Shown here piece after piece: positions 23,440-31,115 of a stretch of 64,000 nt of DNA (positions within the stretch are counted from its first letter, which is position 1; each line of letters opens with the position of its first letter). The stretch covers positions 62,001 through 126,000 of the forward strand of contig JAGCJX010000029.1 of NCBI GenBank assembly GCA_017647795.1, read 5' to 3'. A program made the position numbers and the translations under genes. The DNA is from Bacteroidales bacterium (GTDB taxonomy: Bacteria; Bacteroidota; Bacteroidia; Bacteroidales; UBA932). The notes beneath the pieces were generated by a model, which was not told the DNA's origin, searched no databases, and saw only the letters and a program-made list of their open reading frames with translations.

Positions 23440-23512
23440 GCTTCCTTAGCTCAGCTGGTAGAGCACGACACTCTTACTGTTGGGGTCCAGGGTTCGAGCC
23501 CCTGAGGGAGCA
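23440..23512 (+). tRNA. tRNA-Lys (anticodon CTT)
   Basis: 73-nt cloverleaf: acceptor GCTTCCT/AGGGAGC (one G-T pair), D stem GCTC/GAGC with loop AGCTGGTA, anticodon stem CGACA/TGTTG with loop CTCTTAC (anticodon CTT at 23473-23475), T arm CAGGG-TTCGAGC-CCCTG, discriminator A. The CCA end is not encoded. It has its own promoter and terminator. Confidence 0.95.
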
Positions 23513-23517
23513 CAGAA

Positions 23518-23554: not shown

Positions 23555-24554
23555 TTTTCTGTGGACAGGGGCCTTGTTAGGCGGCGGCTATCCATGGATC
23601 TGGCGGTTTACGTGGACGGTGGTCTCGTTAGGCGGCCGGTATCCATAAATCAGGCGATTTTCGTGGATGGGGCCCATGTTAGGCGGCCGGTATCCATAAA
23701 ACACCCGCCTTTCGTGGACAGAAGCATTGTTTGGCCGCGGCTATCCATAAATCAGGCGGTTTTCGTGGACATGAGCCTCGTTAGGCGGCCGATATCCATA
23801 AATCAGGCGATTTTTGTGGACGGTGGCCTCGTCAGGCGGCCGGTATCCATAAAACACCCGCCTTTTGTGGACAGGAGCCTTGTCTGGCGGCCGGCATCCA
23901 TAAATCAGGCTGTTTTTGTGGATAGAAGCCTCGTCTGGCGGCCGGTATCCATAAAACACCCGCCTTTCGTGGATAGGACTCGCAAATGACGGCGGCAATC
24001 CATAAATCAGGCCGTTTTCGTGGACGCAGGCCTCGGCAGGCGGTCGCTATCCATAAAACACCCGCCTTTCGTGGATGGGACTCGCAAATGACGGCGGCTA
24101 TCCATGGATCTGGCGGTTTACGTGGACGGTGGTCTCGTTAGGCGGTGGCTATCCATAAAACACCCGCCTTTCGTGGATGGACTCGCAAATGACGGCGGCA
24201 ATCCATGAATCAGGCGGTTTGCATGGATGAAAGCTTCGGAAGGCGGTCGCTATCCATAAAACACCCGCCTTTCGTGGACAGGACTCGCAAATGGCGGTGG
24301 CAATCCATGGATCTGGCGGTTTACGTGGACGAAGGCCTCGGCAGGCGGTCGCTATCCATAAAACACCCGCCTTTCGTGGATAGGACTCGCAAATGGCGGC
24401 CGCAATCCATGGATCTGGCGGTTTACGTGGACGAAGGCTTCGGTAGGCGGACGCTATCCATCAAACACCCGCCCTTCGTGGATAGGACTTGCAAATGGCG
24501 GCGGCAATCCATGAATCAGGAGGTTTGCGTGGACGAAGGCTTCGGTAGGCGGAC
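23555..24554. repeat. palindrome array 1: 19.5 units, 51-bp period, alternating orientation
   Basis: Each 26-nt unit runs from TCCAT to GTGGA. Unit starts are 23591, 23642, 23693, 23744, 23795, 23846, 23897, 23948, 23999, 24050, 24101, 24152, 24202, 24253, 24304, 24355, 24406, 24457 and 24508; only 24152-24202 is 50 bp, all other steps are 51. A right half-unit ends at 23565, where its left half would fall inside the tRNA terminator. Two core types occur: A (CACCCGCCT) and B (CAGGCGGT or CTGGCGGT). B is close to the reverse complement of A. From 23846 on they alternate strictly A-B. The 25-nt linkers nearly all contain a GGCGG-like block just before TCCAT. No cas gene and no unique spacers. 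Confidence 0.9.
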
Positions 24555-24564
24555 ACGGCGGGCT

Positions 24565-24715
24565 AGTGGTGATGACGGAGGAGGACTTTGTTCGCTTCGC
24601 TCTCTCCGGCCCCTCCCACCGTATCCTGCGTGGTCTAATCGACCACTTGTCTGCGGCGGGCCCCTCCCCCTACACGAGTCCGGGGGTGGACACGCCTCCT
24701 CCTGTCATCACCACT
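24565..24715. repeat. ~150-bp structured palindromic element
   Basis: Terminal inverted arms 24565-24584 (AGTGGTGATGACGGAGGAGG) and 24695-24715 pair along 20 bases with one bulged nucleotide. Inside is a further perfect hairpin GTGGTC-TAATC-GACCAC at 24630-24646 and GC-rich CCCCTCCC/GGGGGTGG blocks that can pair. A 28-nt stretch at its left end (24566-24593) recurs exactly at 26164-26191. It could be a miniature element end or encode a structured RNA; no coding function is supported. Confidence 0.75.
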
Positions 24716-24748
24716 GTCCCATGAATCAACCTCGCCAAGCGGCGACTA

Positions 24749-24774
24749 TCCATGAGATCGGATTCTTTTATGGA
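24749..24774. repeat. divergent single palindrome unit
   Basis: TCCATGAG...TTTTATGGA, again exactly 26 nt with TCCAT/ATGGA ends, but with a core unlike types A and B. It lies just past the 3' end of the transposase gene, preceded by a GGCGAC block as in the array linkers. Its stem is a perfect Watson-Crick match at the outer five bases. Confidence 0.7.
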
Positions 24775-24791
24775 TAAGTACCGATGCTTTT

Positions 24792-25727
24792 CTATTGCGG
24801 GAACAGTTCCTCCAGAATTGCAAGATCCATTCGCAGCATTCTTCTGAGCTGCTGATTGGAGGCGTTGTAGTTGAAATGCATGTGGCGGGCCGTATCAATC
24901 TTTTGTTGGGCCGTGAGTTCTGTGGTCGATTTGAGGGCATACTCCTTATGAACGAAAGTGTTGAGTACGACATAGAGTTCGTCATCCGTTAAAAATACGG
25001 AGTCCTTTATTCTGGCAGCAATCTGGCTGAAGGCTTCCGCATTGCGGGTTAGGGAATTGAAATAGCTTCTGGCATCCCTAAAAAAACTTTCACCAAGTTT
25101 GATGTCGCAGAAAGAGGGGATGAAGGGCATACTCCCGATTTCGAGTAGACTGGAGAATGGTGCAACATCCCTTGTGTGAAGCAGCTTGCGTTGGGTGTTG
25201 ACGGTGAGTTTTCCTAGTGGAGAGGCACTTATGAATTTGATCCAAGAGCTGAAATAAGCACAGCCACCTCCCCAGGGGTAAGAGTCCGGAGTATGAGAGG
25301 GATTTGCCACGAACGCGTTTCGATTGACATAGATGATTTCATTCCGCAAAGCTTGGAGGGTTTCTATGGGCAGTATGTTCATCCTGAACGGCTTCCAGTC
25401 AATTGCACGTTCCGATCTTGCGAAAAGAGTCCTTATTCTAGTGCGAAATAAATCGAAAAGTTCAAGGCATTTTTCCTCCGGTCCTGATAGAATAAGGTGA
25501 ATGTGGTTGGACATCAATTCGAATGTGAGTAACCTTACCTCGCTTTGTAGGTGAAGAGCGCTAGCAAGGCTCCACATCCCGTCCTTGAATTCCTCGTCAT
25601 TTCGAAAAATATTTTGCATTTGCGTGCCATCCGTAAACAAATGCCAATAGGGTCCATTGTTGATAAATGCGTTCTCACAAATTCGCTCCTTCTCTGAATA
25701 ACTCAGAGCACAAAAATCCTTCATCAT
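24792..25727 (-). CDS. Y1/HUH transposase, REP-associated (RAYT-like)
   Basis: 311-aa protein from the ATG at 25727; counting from an upstream in-frame TTG at 25805 it would be 337 aa. In the 337-aa numbering the HUH motif is His101-x-His103 in MSNHIHLILSG, preceded by the strand YWHLFTDG, and the likely catalytic Tyr159 is in IIYVNRN, followed by SYPWGG: the order and spacing of Y1_Tnp/REP-associated tyrosine transposases. The C-terminus (residues 295-335, TAQQKIDTARHM... QQLRRMLRMD) looks like a DNA-binding helix-turn-helix. The gene sits between two arrays of palindromes, its probable substrates. The catalytic residues look intact. It appears more AT-rich than the core genes. Confidence 0.85.
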   Translation of the reverse strand: MMKDFCALSYSEKERICENAFINNGPYWHLFTDGTQMQNIFRNDEEFKDGMWSLASALHLQSEVRLLTFELMSNHIHLILSGPEEKCLELFDLFRTRIRTLFARSERAIDWKPFRMNILPIETLQALRNEIIYVNRNAFVANPSHTPDSYPWGGGCAYFSSWIKFISASPLGKLTVNTQRKLLHTRDVAPFSSLLEIGSMPFIPSFCDIKLGESFFRDARSYFNSLTRNAEAFSQIAARIKDSVFLTDDELYVVLNTFVHKEYALKSTTELTAQQKIDTARHMHFNYNASNQQLRRMLRMDLAILEELFPQ

Positions 25728-25802
25728 ACATTTACTTATTATACTTTCCCACAATGCCCCCTGTTTCGTCTTCCTGTTGTACAGAGGCGTAGCGTGACGA
25801 TT

Positions 25803-25810
25803 CAAATTTA
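25803..25810 (-). promoter_or_regulatory. -7 promoter box of the transposase gene
   Basis: Minus-strand TAAATTTG, a full match to TANNTTTG. Its last three bases are the TTG that could be read as a start, so transcription would begin downstream and translation would have to use the ATG at 25727, leaving a leader of about 70 nt. No clear -33 TTG. Confidence 0.45.
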
Positions 25811-25859
25811 CAGGCTTTGTTTCTAAGTTCAGAACATTATTTGCAAAAGTCGTCGTCTA

Positions 25860-26140
25860 TCCACAAAACCAGGTCCTTTCGTGGACGCAGGCTTCGACAG
25901 GCGACGGAAATCCATAAAACACCCGCCCTTTGTGGACAGGACTCGCAAAAGACGACGGCAATCCACAGATCAGGCCGTTTTCGTGGACGCAGGCCCTGGC
26001 AGGCGGCGGCAATCCATAAAACACACGCCTTTCGTGGACAGAAGCCTCATCTAGCAGCCGGTATCCATAAAACACCCGCATTTCGTGGACAGAAGCCTCA
26101 TCTAGCAGCCGGTATCCATAAAACACGCGCCTTTCGTGGA
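25860..26140. repeat. palindrome array 2: six units, 51-bp period
   Basis: Units start at 25860, 25911, 25962, 26013, 26064 and 26115, each 26 nt, all steps exactly 51. Order of cores: B-like, A, B, A, A, A. Two units begin TCCAC rather than TCCAT, making a perfect TCCAC/GTGGA stem. The last two 51-bp blocks (26040-26090 and 26091-26141) are near-identical, a recent tandem duplication. The array lies upstream of the transposase gene. Confidence 0.9.
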
Positions 26141-26163
26141 TGGACAATTTGAAAGGTGGGCCT

Positions 26164-26191
26164 GTGGTGATGACGGAGGAGGACTTTGTTC
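26164..26191. repeat. 28-nt copy of the palindromic element end
   Basis: Identical to 24566-24593 (starts GTGGTGATGACGG, ends GGACTTTGTTC). Here the rest of the ~150-bp element is absent. It lies 23 nt beyond array 2, just as the full element lies about 30 nt beyond array 1, so the pair looks like an array-flanking landmark. The remaining 35 nt before the next gene hold nothing recognisable. Confidence 0.75.
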
Positions 26192-26226: not shown

Positions 26227-27195
26227 TTAATCCGACAAACTGAAATCAATTTCATGGACCAATTTGTTGAATTCGAGGATTTCGGGATAGACTTGATCTA
26301 TTTCTGATCGGCGGTTGAGGGAGAGGGCGAGTTTGTGATGGGCCTTTTTGAGGGACTGGAGAGCGGATTTTCCTTTGCGAAGGATGGTCTCGCAGTCTTT
26401 GAGGCGACGACGCATTTCCAAATAAGAACGATCTTCTTCACGGCCTCGGCCTGCTAAGGGCTCACACAATTGTAGATACATTTCGTATTCCGCGGCCAGT
26501 TCCGCCTTTTCGTGTTCTATCCAGCTGCGCATCGGGGCACCGGCCAGCAAGTGCGCCAAGGTATCGCAATAAATTCCGACAAGGGTATCGGCCATCTGAA
26601 CATAGTCCCGCACGACCTCGCCTTGCTTGCGGCGGGCGATGGCTTCTGCACTTTGACCCAACAGCTTGCCCGACCATTTTGCATAACCTTCCGGAATGGT
26701 CATACCCATACCCAACGCGTTGTAATGATGAATCAGAGAATCTGTCTGTCGGCCCAATCCCCGGAGCTGGACTCCGTACTGCTCGTAGCGCGTGGGACTA
26801 CAAAGACTCTTGAGGTTGCGGAAGTAACTTTCCAGCACATCAGAGTAGGCCAAGAATTTTTGAACGGCCTTCTCCTCTTTGATCTGGAAATCCACCACCT
26901 CGTTCAACTGCTGTACCCGTAATTCGGGCGTAATCAGGGTCGCTGTAAAATAAAGGCTGCGTTCGCGACGGCTGTCCGAGAGAGTTTCCAAGACTTGATC
27001 GGGAAACTGACTGAGCGTATCCACGCGTTCACACAACTGACTGACGGTCTCAATCTGCGTCTTGTGCAATACTGAGCAAGCCGCCGCCGTCCACAACAAG
27101 CTCCAAAAGGCTATAAACTGATAAAGGAATGATTTTTTCATGCCCCACAAATCGCCCGCGAAAGGAATTTGTGACAGGGAGTTAGAGTTCTCCAT
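26227..27195 (-). CDS. lipoprotein of unknown function, end of fimbrial operon
   Basis: 322 aa. No domain recognised. An internal MKKSFLYQFIAFWSLLWTAAAC at residues 19-40 looks like a lipoprotein signal with Cys40; the rest is mostly helical and charged (AELAAEYEMYLQLCEP, EEDRSYLEMRRRLKDCET), with coiled-coil character. The ATG at 27195 overlaps the stop of the beta-helix gene as TAATG, so the longer start may be used through coupling; the ATG at 27141 gives a normal signal peptide. It could anchor or assist export of the adhesin encoded upstream (inference). Confidence 0.7.
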   Translation of the reverse strand: MENSNSLSQIPFAGDLWGMKKSFLYQFIAFWSLLWTAAACSVLHKTQIETVSQLCERVDTLSQFPDQVLETLSDSRRERSLYFTATLITPELRVQQLNEVVDFQIKEEKAVQKFLAYSDVLESYFRNLKSLCSPTRYEQYGVQLRGLGRQTDSLIHHYNALGMGMTIPEGYAKWSGKLLGQSAEAIARRKQGEVVRDYVQMADTLVGIYCDTLAHLLAGAPMRSWIEHEKAELAAEYEMYLQLCEPLAGRGREEDRSYLEMRRRLKDCETILRKGKSALQSLKKAHHKLALSLNRRSEIDQVYPEILEFNKLVHEIDFSLSD

Positions 27196-30100
27196 TACCC
27201 ATTTTTAGGCCGTAGGATGTTGACCTTTCGAGTACCGAAGTCTTTTATATTGCTCTTTGACCCCGACTTAAAGGTAATCGTAACCTCTCTTGTACCGCCT
27301 CGGGAGATGGGAATGATTTTATCATTTTCATCATCGGGTGAGCACGTTATCTCGTCATATTTGTATGACCAGTCCGTGATATCGAATTTCCAGTTGTGTG
27401 AGGGCAATCCAACAATTCTTCTCACCTCATTTTCTTTTCCCGTTCCCGTGAACAAGACATTCCGGTATTCCTGATAGATGCCATTATCCGGATACGACAA
27501 GACAACCGATGCATCGTGAGATATATCCAAACCCATGACAATGATGGTTACAAGCACATAGTCATATCCCAAATCCAGACAAATTTCATCCCGGACTTCC
27601 TTCGTTGCTTCTGAAAATGTAAGAAGATTCAGCTCCTTGCTCACATCCAAAAGTGCATCCTCGTACCGGTTGCCATGTTCATCTACGACCCAATACAAGT
27701 CATTACCAGGCACATCAAAGCCAGTCAGATTCATACCTGACACATTGGGCAAGTTTGCCAAACTCTCATTTCCACTGGAATAGATATCAGCCGCTTCATA
27801 CGTTGCCACATTGTTGTAAATCCCTAGGTTTTTCTGGTCCCCGAACGATAGTACCCCCTTTGCCATATAAATACCACCACCAACACCTTCTTCCGCACTT
27901 GTACCGATTGCCTTATTCCCAACAATCAGACCCAGACCAGAAATATTCTTATTTCCAAACGTCATGTTCACACCTCCGTCCAGATACAATCCGCCACCAT
28001 TCTTCGCAATATTATTACGCACATCAGCGGTCACTTTGAGAAGGATGTCCCCAGAAGCATAAATGGCCCCACCATCCCCCGAAGCGGTATTCCCTACATA
28101 GGATCCTCCTTCGCAAGAAATTGATTTTTGCGTTCCTGCATTCTTAATGTACAACGCACCCCCATTGCCTGTGGCCATATTGTTTTTAATTTCACTGCCA
28201 TCGGCAAATGTAAAGACGCCGTCATAAAGAGCGATTGCCCCCCCATTGACAGTATGGACTACAGAAGATGGATCCTTTCCGTTTCCGGAAAGTTCAGTAA
28301 GACCCATAGTGATGTCTCCGTTATTGACATAAAAGGCTCCACCCTCACCGGCAGAATAATTACCGACAATAGTGGCCATAATGCTACTACTGCTGCCGTT
28401 GATATTGATGTTACCACGTTTAATGTCTGTTCCTGTAACATATACGGCTCCACCATTGGCGGTCGCAGTGTTTCCAGTGATTTCAGTAGTGCCTTCTGCT
28501 GTAAAGTCTCCTCCGTTTACAAAAACAGCACCTCCATTTGCAGCATTGTTATTGCTTATTATATTTTCATCAAGACTAATGTTACCTCCTGAGACATACA
28601 CTGCTCCACCGTCACCACCAGCGGAATTCGACTTTAGCGTGATAGTAGAAGATGCCGAGAACTGGCCTCCATCCACATATACCGCTCCACCATCTTTTAT
28701 GGATCTGTTGTTCTGTATCGAAGTTTCTCCATTTGCGATGAATGAGCCCCCACAGTAAACGCCACCGCCATGATTGCCGGCAGTATTTCCATCATTTGAT
28801 GTATTTCCTCCTAATAACAATCTGCCATTATTACCGACAGTAAATACAGAAGGACTGTCCGAGGTTCCTACGCCAAGATAAATTGCTCCGCCGTCACCAT
28901 TATCCGCCTTATTTCCAATGATAGATGCGGTACCATTTACTGTAAAATTACCCTTTGCAATAAATACGGCTCCACCGGATTCTTTTGCTCTATTGCCGGA
29001 CAGAATGGCATTCATGCCAGCAGAGACAACGAATTCGGTTTTCTGCTCCTGATACGCACCACCGCCATGACTTTGTGCAATATTATTTGAAAATGATCCG
29101 CCGTTCAATATGATTTTAGGTGTCCAGTCTCTACCGGCAACCAGTTGGACATACTTGTCTTTCTCAGTCTGACTCAAATAATTCAAGATATTCTCCATCA
29201 GATACACTCCAGCACCATTTCCATCTGTAGTATTGCCTGAAACATTGCCGGAATTCAATGTAAATGTTGCCAGACGGACATAATGTGCATAATTACTACT
29301 TTCTGTCATAATCAATCCGATACCACCACCTAATGTCTCTGCATGATTATTGGAAATATTACCTTTATTCATGGTACAACTGCCGGAGTTGACAAGAAGT
29401 CCGCCACCATATCCCGGGTACTCGTCATTTGGATCGCCGACAGGCTTCGTCCATGAATATTTACCGTCTGATCCCTTGATCACTTCCGATGTCAAAAGAT
29501 TAATTCCGTCAAAAGCTTTGTTCCCGGTTATATCTGTGCCATTAAGAACCAGATCACCGCCAGTGTTAACATGTACACCACCACCTCTGCCATAAACGAC
29601 ATTACCATGTATCTTTCCACCATCCAGATGGATGAAACACTCGTAACTGCTGTGAATTCCACCGCCGACACCACCCAAGGCAGTATTATTTGATATCTGG
29701 GTGCCAGGGTTCATGTAGAAGTAGACACCTCCGGTAAGATGAAGACCGGCAGCACCTTTCAATACTGAAGTATTGCTGTTTATCTCACTGTTATTCTGAA
29801 GAGTCAGCCTGCCTTTGCTCTGCAGCTGTCCGCCGCCGCCATAATACATTGCAGCATTGCCTGTTACTTTCGTATTATCCAGAATAAACGGAACGGCATC
29901 TTTTTCATCAGTTATTTTATCGTCGCCTGCAAAGAGAAATCCGCCACCTCGTCCCTTATTTACAAGGCCGTCTGCTGTTTCCGTCGCCATTGCACGGTTG
30001 TCACGTATGTATGAATCTGTTATTGTCGTTGCTCCCGAAGCATAGATACCTCCTCCACCAGTAGTTGCATAATTATGTTCAATGACAGTATCATCGATCG

Positions 30101-31115
30101 TGCATTCTCCGCTGACTCTTATACCGCCGCCATTTACTCCGCTGTTAAAGCTGATTGTGGAATTGGTTATATTCAACTCACCTGTAGCATTGATACCGCC
30201 ACCACTTACAACCGACGAATTATAGGAGATATCACTGTTTTCAATAGTGCATGGAGCAGAATTTGCAACGTATATGGCACCACCTTCACCTGTTGCTGCA
30301 TTATTTTTTATAGTGCATCCGTCGATTGACAGAGATCCGGTTTGACCTCGCGAATAAATTGCGCCGCCTTGAAGTCCTGCAACATTGTCTTCAAAGATAC
30401 AATCAGTCAGCTCAACACGATAGCCACATATAGCGCCGCCTTGACCTTCAGTCTTATTATGGGATAAAGTAACGTTAGACAGATTTATGAAAGAACCATT
30501 GTTTTTATTAGGAGCCTCACCATATATCACGCCAGCTAAACCTCCATCAGATAACTTACTTCTGTTATACATGATTTTACCACCTGTCATTATCAATGTT
30601 CCTGATGATGAGCAGGTGACAGCTGCACCGATTCTCGGATCAAAGCATCCTGCAATCGTACCACCTTGGATCGTACAAGTACCCGCAACAGAAATTCCTT
30701 TTCTTCCAGTGGATTCATTTTTGTACGGATTATAGATAATACCACCTGGTAGCGCGTACTGTTCTTTACCACTTTGAAGTGGCCATCGGAAAAGTCCATT
30801 TTCATCAATATATCCGGCATGTCCTAAACCTGGATTGGAATCCTTGATAATAAGAGACGCACCTGCCGGCACATCTATCACTTGTGAAGCTCCATCAGTA
30901 TCAGCCAGATACAGCACATAACCGTTCAGGTCAATGGTAAGGGTACCTGAAACTATTATCGGACTTTTCAGCTGAGTATTATCCGTCAGAGTAAAGGTGC
31001 CCGTCATCGTTCCTCCATCATGAGTGGCCGCATACAACTCCGACTTTGTCCACAGAAATGCAGTGATAAAAACAAATATATGGTATAAATATCTTTTCAT
31101 ATTCCAACAAATCAT
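27195..31115 (-). CDS. large beta-helix protein with Pmp-like GGA(I/V) repeats, putative fimbrial adhesin
   Basis: 1306-aa secreted protein. After MKRYLYHIFVFITAFLWTKS and a cleavage region near LYAATH, residues ~150-1090 are built of some 35-40 repeats with GGA(I/V/L)Y and xI.xN elements (GGAIYVANSAPCTIENSDIS), as in chlamydial polymorphic membrane proteins and other right-handed beta-helices. There is no autotransporter barrel; the last ~170 residues are a separate non-repetitive domain. It is read from a TAATG overlap with the fimbrillin-like gene and overlaps the lipoprotein gene the same way, so it belongs to the fimbrial operon. A tip or accessory adhesin is the best guess. Confidence 0.8.
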   Translation of the reverse strand: MICWNMKRYLYHIFVFITAFLWTKSELYAATHDGGTMTGTFTLTDNTQLKSPIIVSGTLTIDLNGYVLYLADTDGASQVIDVPAGASLIIKDSNPGLGHAGYIDENGLFRWPLQSGKEQYALPGGIIYNPYKNESTGRKGISVAGTCTIQGGTIAGCFDPRIGAAVTCSSSGTLIMTGGKIMYNRSKLSDGGLAGVIYGEAPNKNNGSFINLSNVTLSHNKTEGQGGAICGYRVELTDCIFEDNVAGLQGGAIYSRGQTGSLSIDGCTIKNNAATGEGGAIYVANSAPCTIENSDISYNSSVVSGGGINATGELNITNSTISFNSGVNGGGIRVSGECTIDDTVIEHNYATTGGGGIYASGATTITDSYIRDNRAMATETADGLVNKGRGGGFLFAGDDKITDEKDAVPFILDNTKVTGNAAMYYGGGGQLQSKGRLTLQNNSEINSNTSVLKGAAGLHLTGGVYFYMNPGTQISNNTALGGVGGGIHSSYECFIHLDGGKIHGNVVYGRGGGVHVNTGGDLVLNGTDITGNKAFDGINLLTSEVIKGSDGKYSWTKPVGDPNDEYPGYGGGLLVNSGSCTMNKGNISNNHAETLGGGIGLIMTESSNYAHYVRLATFTLNSGNVSGNTTDGNGAGVYLMENILNYLSQTEKDKYVQLVAGRDWTPKIILNGGSFSNNIAQSHGGGAYQEQKTEFVVSAGMNAILSGNRAKESGGAVFIAKGNFTVNGTASIIGNKADNGDGGAIYLGVGTSDSPSVFTVGNNGRLLLGGNTSNDGNTAGNHGGGVYCGGSFIANGETSIQNNRSIKDGGAVYVDGGQFSASSTITLKSNSAGGDGGAVYVSGGNISLDENIISNNNAANGGAVFVNGGDFTAEGTTEITGNTATANGGAVYVTGTDIKRGNININGSSSSIMATIVGNYSAGEGGAFYVNNGDITMGLTELSGNGKDPSSVVHTVNGGAIALYDGVFTFADGSEIKNNMATGNGGALYIKNAGTQKSISCEGGSYVGNTASGDGGAIYASGDILLKVTADVRNNIAKNGGGLYLDGGVNMTFGNKNISGLGLIVGNKAIGTSAEEGVGGGIYMAKGVLSFGDQKNLGIYNNVATYEAADIYSSGNESLANLPNVSGMNLTGFDVPGNDLYWVVDEHGNRYEDALLDVSKELNLLTFSEATKEVRDEICLDLGYDYVLVTIIVMGLDISHDASVVLSYPDNGIYQEYRNVLFTGTGKENEVRRIVGLPSHNWKFDITDWSYKYDEITCSPDDENDKIIPISRGGTREVTITFKSGSKSNIKDFGTRKVNILRPKNG

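Follow-up and report, generated by a model that had tools for sequence, protein, structure and literature searches.

The window analysed here, a stretch of 64,000 nucleotides from a gut Bacteroidales genome, raises the question of how two regular arrays of short palindromes are related to the transposase gene that lies between them. The left array contains 19 palindromic units of 26 nt (23591-24533, TCCAY-N16-RTGGA) separated by 25-nt spacers, with all steps of 51 bp except a single one of 50 bp, and a half unit at its left edge (23555-23565). The right array (25860-26140) consists of six palindromic units, all with a period of 51 and in the same orientation as those on the left, and a divergent lone unit is found just downstream of the transposase stop codon (24749-24774). 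An earlier note on this DNA had counted 25 full units plus a half and a divergent one, nearly all on a 51-bp period, and both the count and the period were confirmed. The left array reaches a Tandem Repeats Finder score of 1015 at period 102 which, together with the counts of the unit in the genome against a control pattern (see below), indicates that the arrays are not due to chance. Folded as single-stranded DNA, the whole array is only weakly better than its shuffled versions (z of -1.3 and -1.4). Directly upstream of the left array there is a tRNA-Lys (CTT) gene (23440-23513) followed by a terminator-like hairpin; the tRNA alone reached the gathering score in Rfam.

The arrays had also been described as an alternation of two core types that are near reverse complements of each other. 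In the left array, the final 15 units do alternate between cores of type CCGCC(T) and (A)GGCGG, but neighbouring units are not inverted copies: their spacers match better directly (0.51) than as reverse complements (0.35), as do the 12-nt cores (0.56 versus 0.39), while next-but-one 51-mers match at 0.80. The arrays of the window are therefore head-to-tail, and what looks like alternation is the direct repetition of a two-unit, 102-bp block on top of the 51-bp period, not a switch of orientation. The same higher-order repeat, with the next-but-one unit as the best match (0.80 to 0.91 in the three arrays), was found in contigs C4 and C9 of the same genome. Over the eight arrays tested, direct matches exceeded reverse-complement matches in all eight for the spacers and in seven for the cores, the exception being the C4 core (0.56 direct, 0.61 reverse complement), and we rejected BIME-type alternation on these grounds.

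The units are not restricted to the window. In the genome (1.8 Mb in 33 contigs, 86% complete), the unit pattern has 110 matches versus 6 for the reversed control pattern, and two units linked at 51 bp have 78 and 77 matches (forward and reverse) versus none for the control. These matches form about a dozen arrays, located in contigs C3 (two), C4, C6, C9, C10, C14, C17, C18, C19, C22, and C26, so that the genome-wide dispersal proposed as a check in the earlier note was found. Many of them sit at contig ends, which suggests that the arrays break the assembly. In the stretches examined the arrays fall between long ORFs; over the C4 array an ORF continues across the repeats, 51 being a multiple of three. 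Cores and spacers are homogenised inside each array and differ from one array to another.

Other elements accompany the arrays. A 149-bp long-hairpin element with the ends GTGGTGATGACGGAGGAGG...CCTCCTCCTGTCATCACCAC occupies the spacer next to the left array (24566-24714), and an exact 28-bp fragment of it lies at the end of the right array (26164-26191). It has eight matches in the genome (C6, C14, C22, C26, and C33), most in or beside arrays of the same kind, and its arms vary between copies with both sides changing in match (GTGGTGATGAC / GTGGAGATGAC). The genome also has a second, distant HUH gene (C22:77100-77975, 26% identity) with different flanking palindromes (CCTTCGTGAAC) and a 74-bp repeat, and near more distant HUH genes we found tandem repeats of short period (L057:3126-3391, 15 bp; L065:2857-3083, 27 bp; L075:2598-2740, 11 bp). 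Elsewhere in the window, a 1,306-aa ORF (27195-31115, minus strand) is rich in GGAxY-type repeats and looks like a beta-helix surface protein.

The gene between the arrays (24792-25727, minus strand) codes for a RAYT-like HUH/Y1 transposase of 311 aa from its ATG, the frame being open to 25805 from a TTG (337 aa). Its description as one intact-looking Y1 gene with HxH and tyrosine motifs stands, as both H75/H77 (about 25497-25505, NHIH) and Tyr133 (about 25329-25331, YVNRN) are intact. H75 and Y133 are invariant among 53 sequences and H77 is conserved in at least 90% of them, and the NHxH motif is kept in nearly all intact relatives. The AlphaFold2 model built from 53 relatives (pLDDT of 91) has as its best solved match 4ER8, the complex of Escherichia coli TnpA-REP with a REP hairpin (Z of 10.2 over 151 residues). 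The match covers residues 22 to 245 of the model; residues 246 to 311, which include C-terminal helices beyond the 4ER8-like part, fall outside, and a Pfam search of 10 family members found no Bac_DnaA_C/HTH-like C-terminal domain. The TnpA proteins of IS608 and ISDra2 rank below 4ER8, and since these IS transposases have scores comparable to those of Thg1 enzymes, the 4ER8 match alone stands clear. At the sequence level, the protein did not reach Pfam Y1_Tnp (17.5 bits, cutoff 23) or NCBIfam NF047646, REP_Tyr_transpos (16.8 bits, cutoff 80), and phmmer gave weak matches at best against PDB sequences. The dN/dS values of 0.07 to 0.19, obtained from pairs among relatives given that dS is saturated for pairs that include the window gene, show purifying selection on the family.

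A scan of named genomes recovered 121 relatives of the transposase, 80 of which were kept (33 to 71% identity). They belong mostly to Bacteroidales MAGs from gut, rumen, and caecum, including Cryptobacteroides and Egerieousia, and a few are labelled Bacteroidia, Bacteroidaceae, or Rikenellaceae. Direct repeats no farther than 1.2 kb from the gene occur at lag 51 in 48 of the 80 loci and at lag 52 in 14, compared with a mean of 1.07 for other lags; beyond 1.5 kb, lag 51 appears in only 8 of the 80. A repeat of 50 to 53 bp is found in 57 loci, about a quarter being without one, and these period counts are not independent, the loci being related. The distances between hairpin centres are 51.0 (34 cases), 102 (17), and 52 (11), with nearly all other values seen once or twice, and shuffled sequences gave no such distances. 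Pairing in the listed hairpins is not evidence in itself, since they were chosen by complementarity; the unbiased test compares arrays picked by lag alone with their own shuffles, and 24 of 57 arrays were palindromic beyond these at p<0.05. The 51- or 52-bp state of a locus showed no significant association with the gene tree (P=0.079).

The units follow a common layout, [stem]-AAAA-[GC core]-TTTT-[complementary stem], in which the stem is the variable part. TCCAY is shared by the window and three of its relatives at 71% identity and recurs in several clades, and elsewhere the stems are TCCGT, TCCGG, TCCTC, AGMAC, GGCAC, GCCAT, CGAAC, and others. When stem states, assigned by eye for 46 rows of the tree, were mapped on the gene tree, 21 changes were required, versus a mean of 34.3 and a minimum of 30 in 2000 shuffles (P=0.0005). 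Stems thus differ between clades and follow the gene tree. A change in one arm is matched on the other, so what is kept is the pairing and not one sequence. Length stays the same although stem sequences are almost entirely different, which points to a constraint on unit length. The tracking of the gene by stem differences while the 51/52-bp spacing stays suggests that enzyme and repeats evolve together, and the constancy of the spacing despite differing array sequences suggests that something measures it.

Known RAYTs have been described with inverted flanking REPs (PMC2817692). Among the 49 loci with similar flanks, the similarity is direct in 39 and inverted in 9, and the flanks of the window score 212 directly and 35 inverted. 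Where relatives are otherwise collinear, arrays differ by indels of 51, 51, and 52 bp, that is, one unit, and other indels in array regions (27, 72, 76, and 86 bp) are not multiples of 51. Between two related species, a 3.6-kb segment is inverted (L152:4929-8921 versus L145:1495-5400) with its ends at inverted palindrome arrays, and this pair of sequences suggests that such arrays act as substrates for inversion. We also observed a partial gene-plus-array duplicate upstream of an intact gene (L116:1292-1794), a second copy of the gene region (L105:4999-6149), and a decayed transposase copy with four stop codons (L124:978-1906). No empty site was found when the C10 locus was compared with the same-genus genome G001, in which the locus is not collinear.

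Across 150 genomes of the same family, TCCAY arrays with the 51-bp period are present in 9 and the gene has a close relative in 19, with 5 genomes having both (hypergeometric P=0.0018, without phylogenetic correction); in one of these genomes, G138, TCCAT arrays flank its gene on both sides. The expectation that arrays would occur only where the transposase is present is therefore borne out as an enrichment and not as a rule, because four of the nine array-bearing genomes have no close relative of the gene. In those four, the stretches read contained no HUH ORF beside the arrays. Either arrays can persist without the gene or another enzyme serves them.

These four genomes are among the observations favouring the strongest rival explanation, according to which the tandem repeats are passive, being maintained by homologous recombination and by slippage during replication, with the gene nearby by chance or merely as a past seed. 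The homogenisation of units in each array while arrays differ is also as expected from such processes, and recombination or slippage alone could produce it; the 3.6-kb inversion between inverted arrays implies that recombination does act. However, slippage gives a constant period in each array, not the same 51 or 52 bp across unrelated stems, and it accounts neither for the enrichment of the repeat beside the gene (48 of 80 loci near it versus 8 of 80 beyond 1.5 kb) nor for stems that follow the gene tree. We consider this explanation unlikely, although it deserves to be kept in mind.

A second rival places the cause of the period in helical phasing for a double-stranded DNA-binding or nucleoid protein, the arrays being chromosome-organising or regulatory and the enzyme only maintaining them. 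The fixed period, the extragenic position of the arrays, and the equivalence of 51 to 52 bp to about five turns fit this proposal, and the additional C-terminal part of the model (residues 246 to 311) might bind DNA. On the other hand, stem changes are compensated on the other arm, so that pairing is kept, and no other binding protein was identified, which leaves phasing as a distinctly improbable cause. We give still less weight to an ordinary IS200/IS605-type insertion sequence with hairpin ends whose stacked end fragments would form the arrays. The HUH/Y1 fold is common to the TnpA of ISDra2 and IS608, and the partial duplication at L116 and the second copy at L105 would suit a mobile element, but dispersed copies of near identity are lacking (the gene has a single close copy in its own genome and divergent ones in relatives), selection is strongly purifying, each gene is accompanied by tens to hundreds of repeats, and tblastn found no match to the transposase in phage and plasmid collections. 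Finally, a CRISPR array (26-nt repeats and 25-nt spacers), a coding repeat (51 bp being 17 codons, with open frames running through), or a DnaA-box cluster (TATCCAC being similar) is scarcely credible, as the spacers are copies of one another, 52-bp arrays exist that would break any frame, and stems vary in sequence from clade to clade.

The closest known system is that of RAYT/TnpA-REP (PMC2817692, PMC6006769, PMC8266576), with which the family shares a low-copy HUH/Y1 gene under purifying selection, dispersed extragenic palindromes that flank the gene and coevolve with it, and the nearest solved fold. It differs in the size of the protein (about 310 aa versus 150 to 240), in a tyrosine motif YxNRN without NP, in flanks that are mostly direct instead of inverted, in arrays that run head-to-tail at a constant period of 51/52 bp, and in falling far below the NCBIfam RAYT cutoff. 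Nor is a GT[AG]G tetranucleotide at the 5' hairpin foot shared by the whole family; RTGG belongs to the stem in units of the TCCAY type, and other clades use AGMAC, GGCAC, GCCAT, CGAAC, etc. BIME-2 and REPIN arrays are likewise made of multiple, regularly spaced palindromic units between genes; unlike them, the units described here are head-to-tail and keep the same spacing across clades with unrelated stems.

Within the published TnpAY1 classification, subclass 2.6 is mostly from Bacteroidetes, has a median of 179 aa, and is flanked by "atypical secondary structures" (PMC6006769). It resembles our family in phylum and in the non-canonical structures that flank the gene and are dispersed in the genome, and is set apart, by its published description, by its length (179 versus about 310 aa) and its signature (YIH[QN]NP versus Y-x-N-R-N). 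Subclass 2.1/TIRYT proteins are also long, with an additional HTH-like C-terminal tail, but were reported without REP-like sequences and carry the signatures YIELNP or Y[IV]HLNP (PMC6006769). Y-x-N-R-N is absent from the signatures of that classification (PMC6006769). The TnpA of IS200/IS605 elements (IS608, ISDra2) has the HUH/Y1 fold and, in known members, recognises hairpin DNA, whereas our family has a larger protein, no multi-copy mobile IS, and arrays of hairpins where IS elements have one left and one right end.

Taking all this into account, it seems likely that the locus is a REP/RAYT-like system, in which an HUH/Y1 protein of an apparently undescribed long RAYT-like subclass is associated with its own REP-like arrays of 51/52-bp units. 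The earlier note had proposed a REP/BIME-RAYT-like system: the TnpA-REP-like fold, the extragenic dispersal, and the tracking of the gene tree by the stems support the RAYT side of that proposal. The BIME alternation is not supported, and neither is the inverted arrangement of flanking REPs known from RAYT loci. It had also placed such systems mainly in Gammaproteobacteria; the phylum is not new, since RAYT-like proteins accompanied by atypical repeats had previously been reported from Bacteroidetes (PMC6006769). In the system that we favour, a nuclease-ligase of about 310 aa would recognise its own short hairpins, defined by a clade-specific stem of 5 to 7 bp, AAAA, a GC-rich core, and TTTT, and would cut and rejoin the repeat DNA in single-stranded form, most likely on the lagging-strand template. 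The window protein would accordingly be expected to cleave its cognate hairpins. Each array unit would correspond to one hairpin and a linker of constant length, together 51 or 52 nt, and this length might be that of the DNA excised or pasted by the enzyme, probably as a dimer gripping two neighbouring hairpins, so that the period would have a geometric cause. Driven by the enzyme, arrays would grow or shrink unit by unit and spread to intergenic sites.

A more specific proposal, which we advance tentatively and with somewhat less than even confidence, is that of a distinct, undescribed class of domesticated HUH transposases in gut Bacteroidales, the geometry of which measures a unit of 51 or 52 nt and builds head-to-tail hairpin arrays unit by unit, with stems that coevolve and a length that stays fixed. 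We found no description of the family or of its 51-bp arrays in the open-access literature searched, which is an incomplete set. To a specialist, the surprise would be the conservation of unit length. How RAYTs propagate and maintain REP sequences has yet to be explained (PMC8266576), and here an explicit repeat grammar, with a nearly invariant length and a free stem, would make both the recognition code, which relates stem to protein clade, and the 51/52-nt step size of array change directly testable, with dozens of natural enzyme-repeat pairs catalogued here in the bacteria of herbivore guts.
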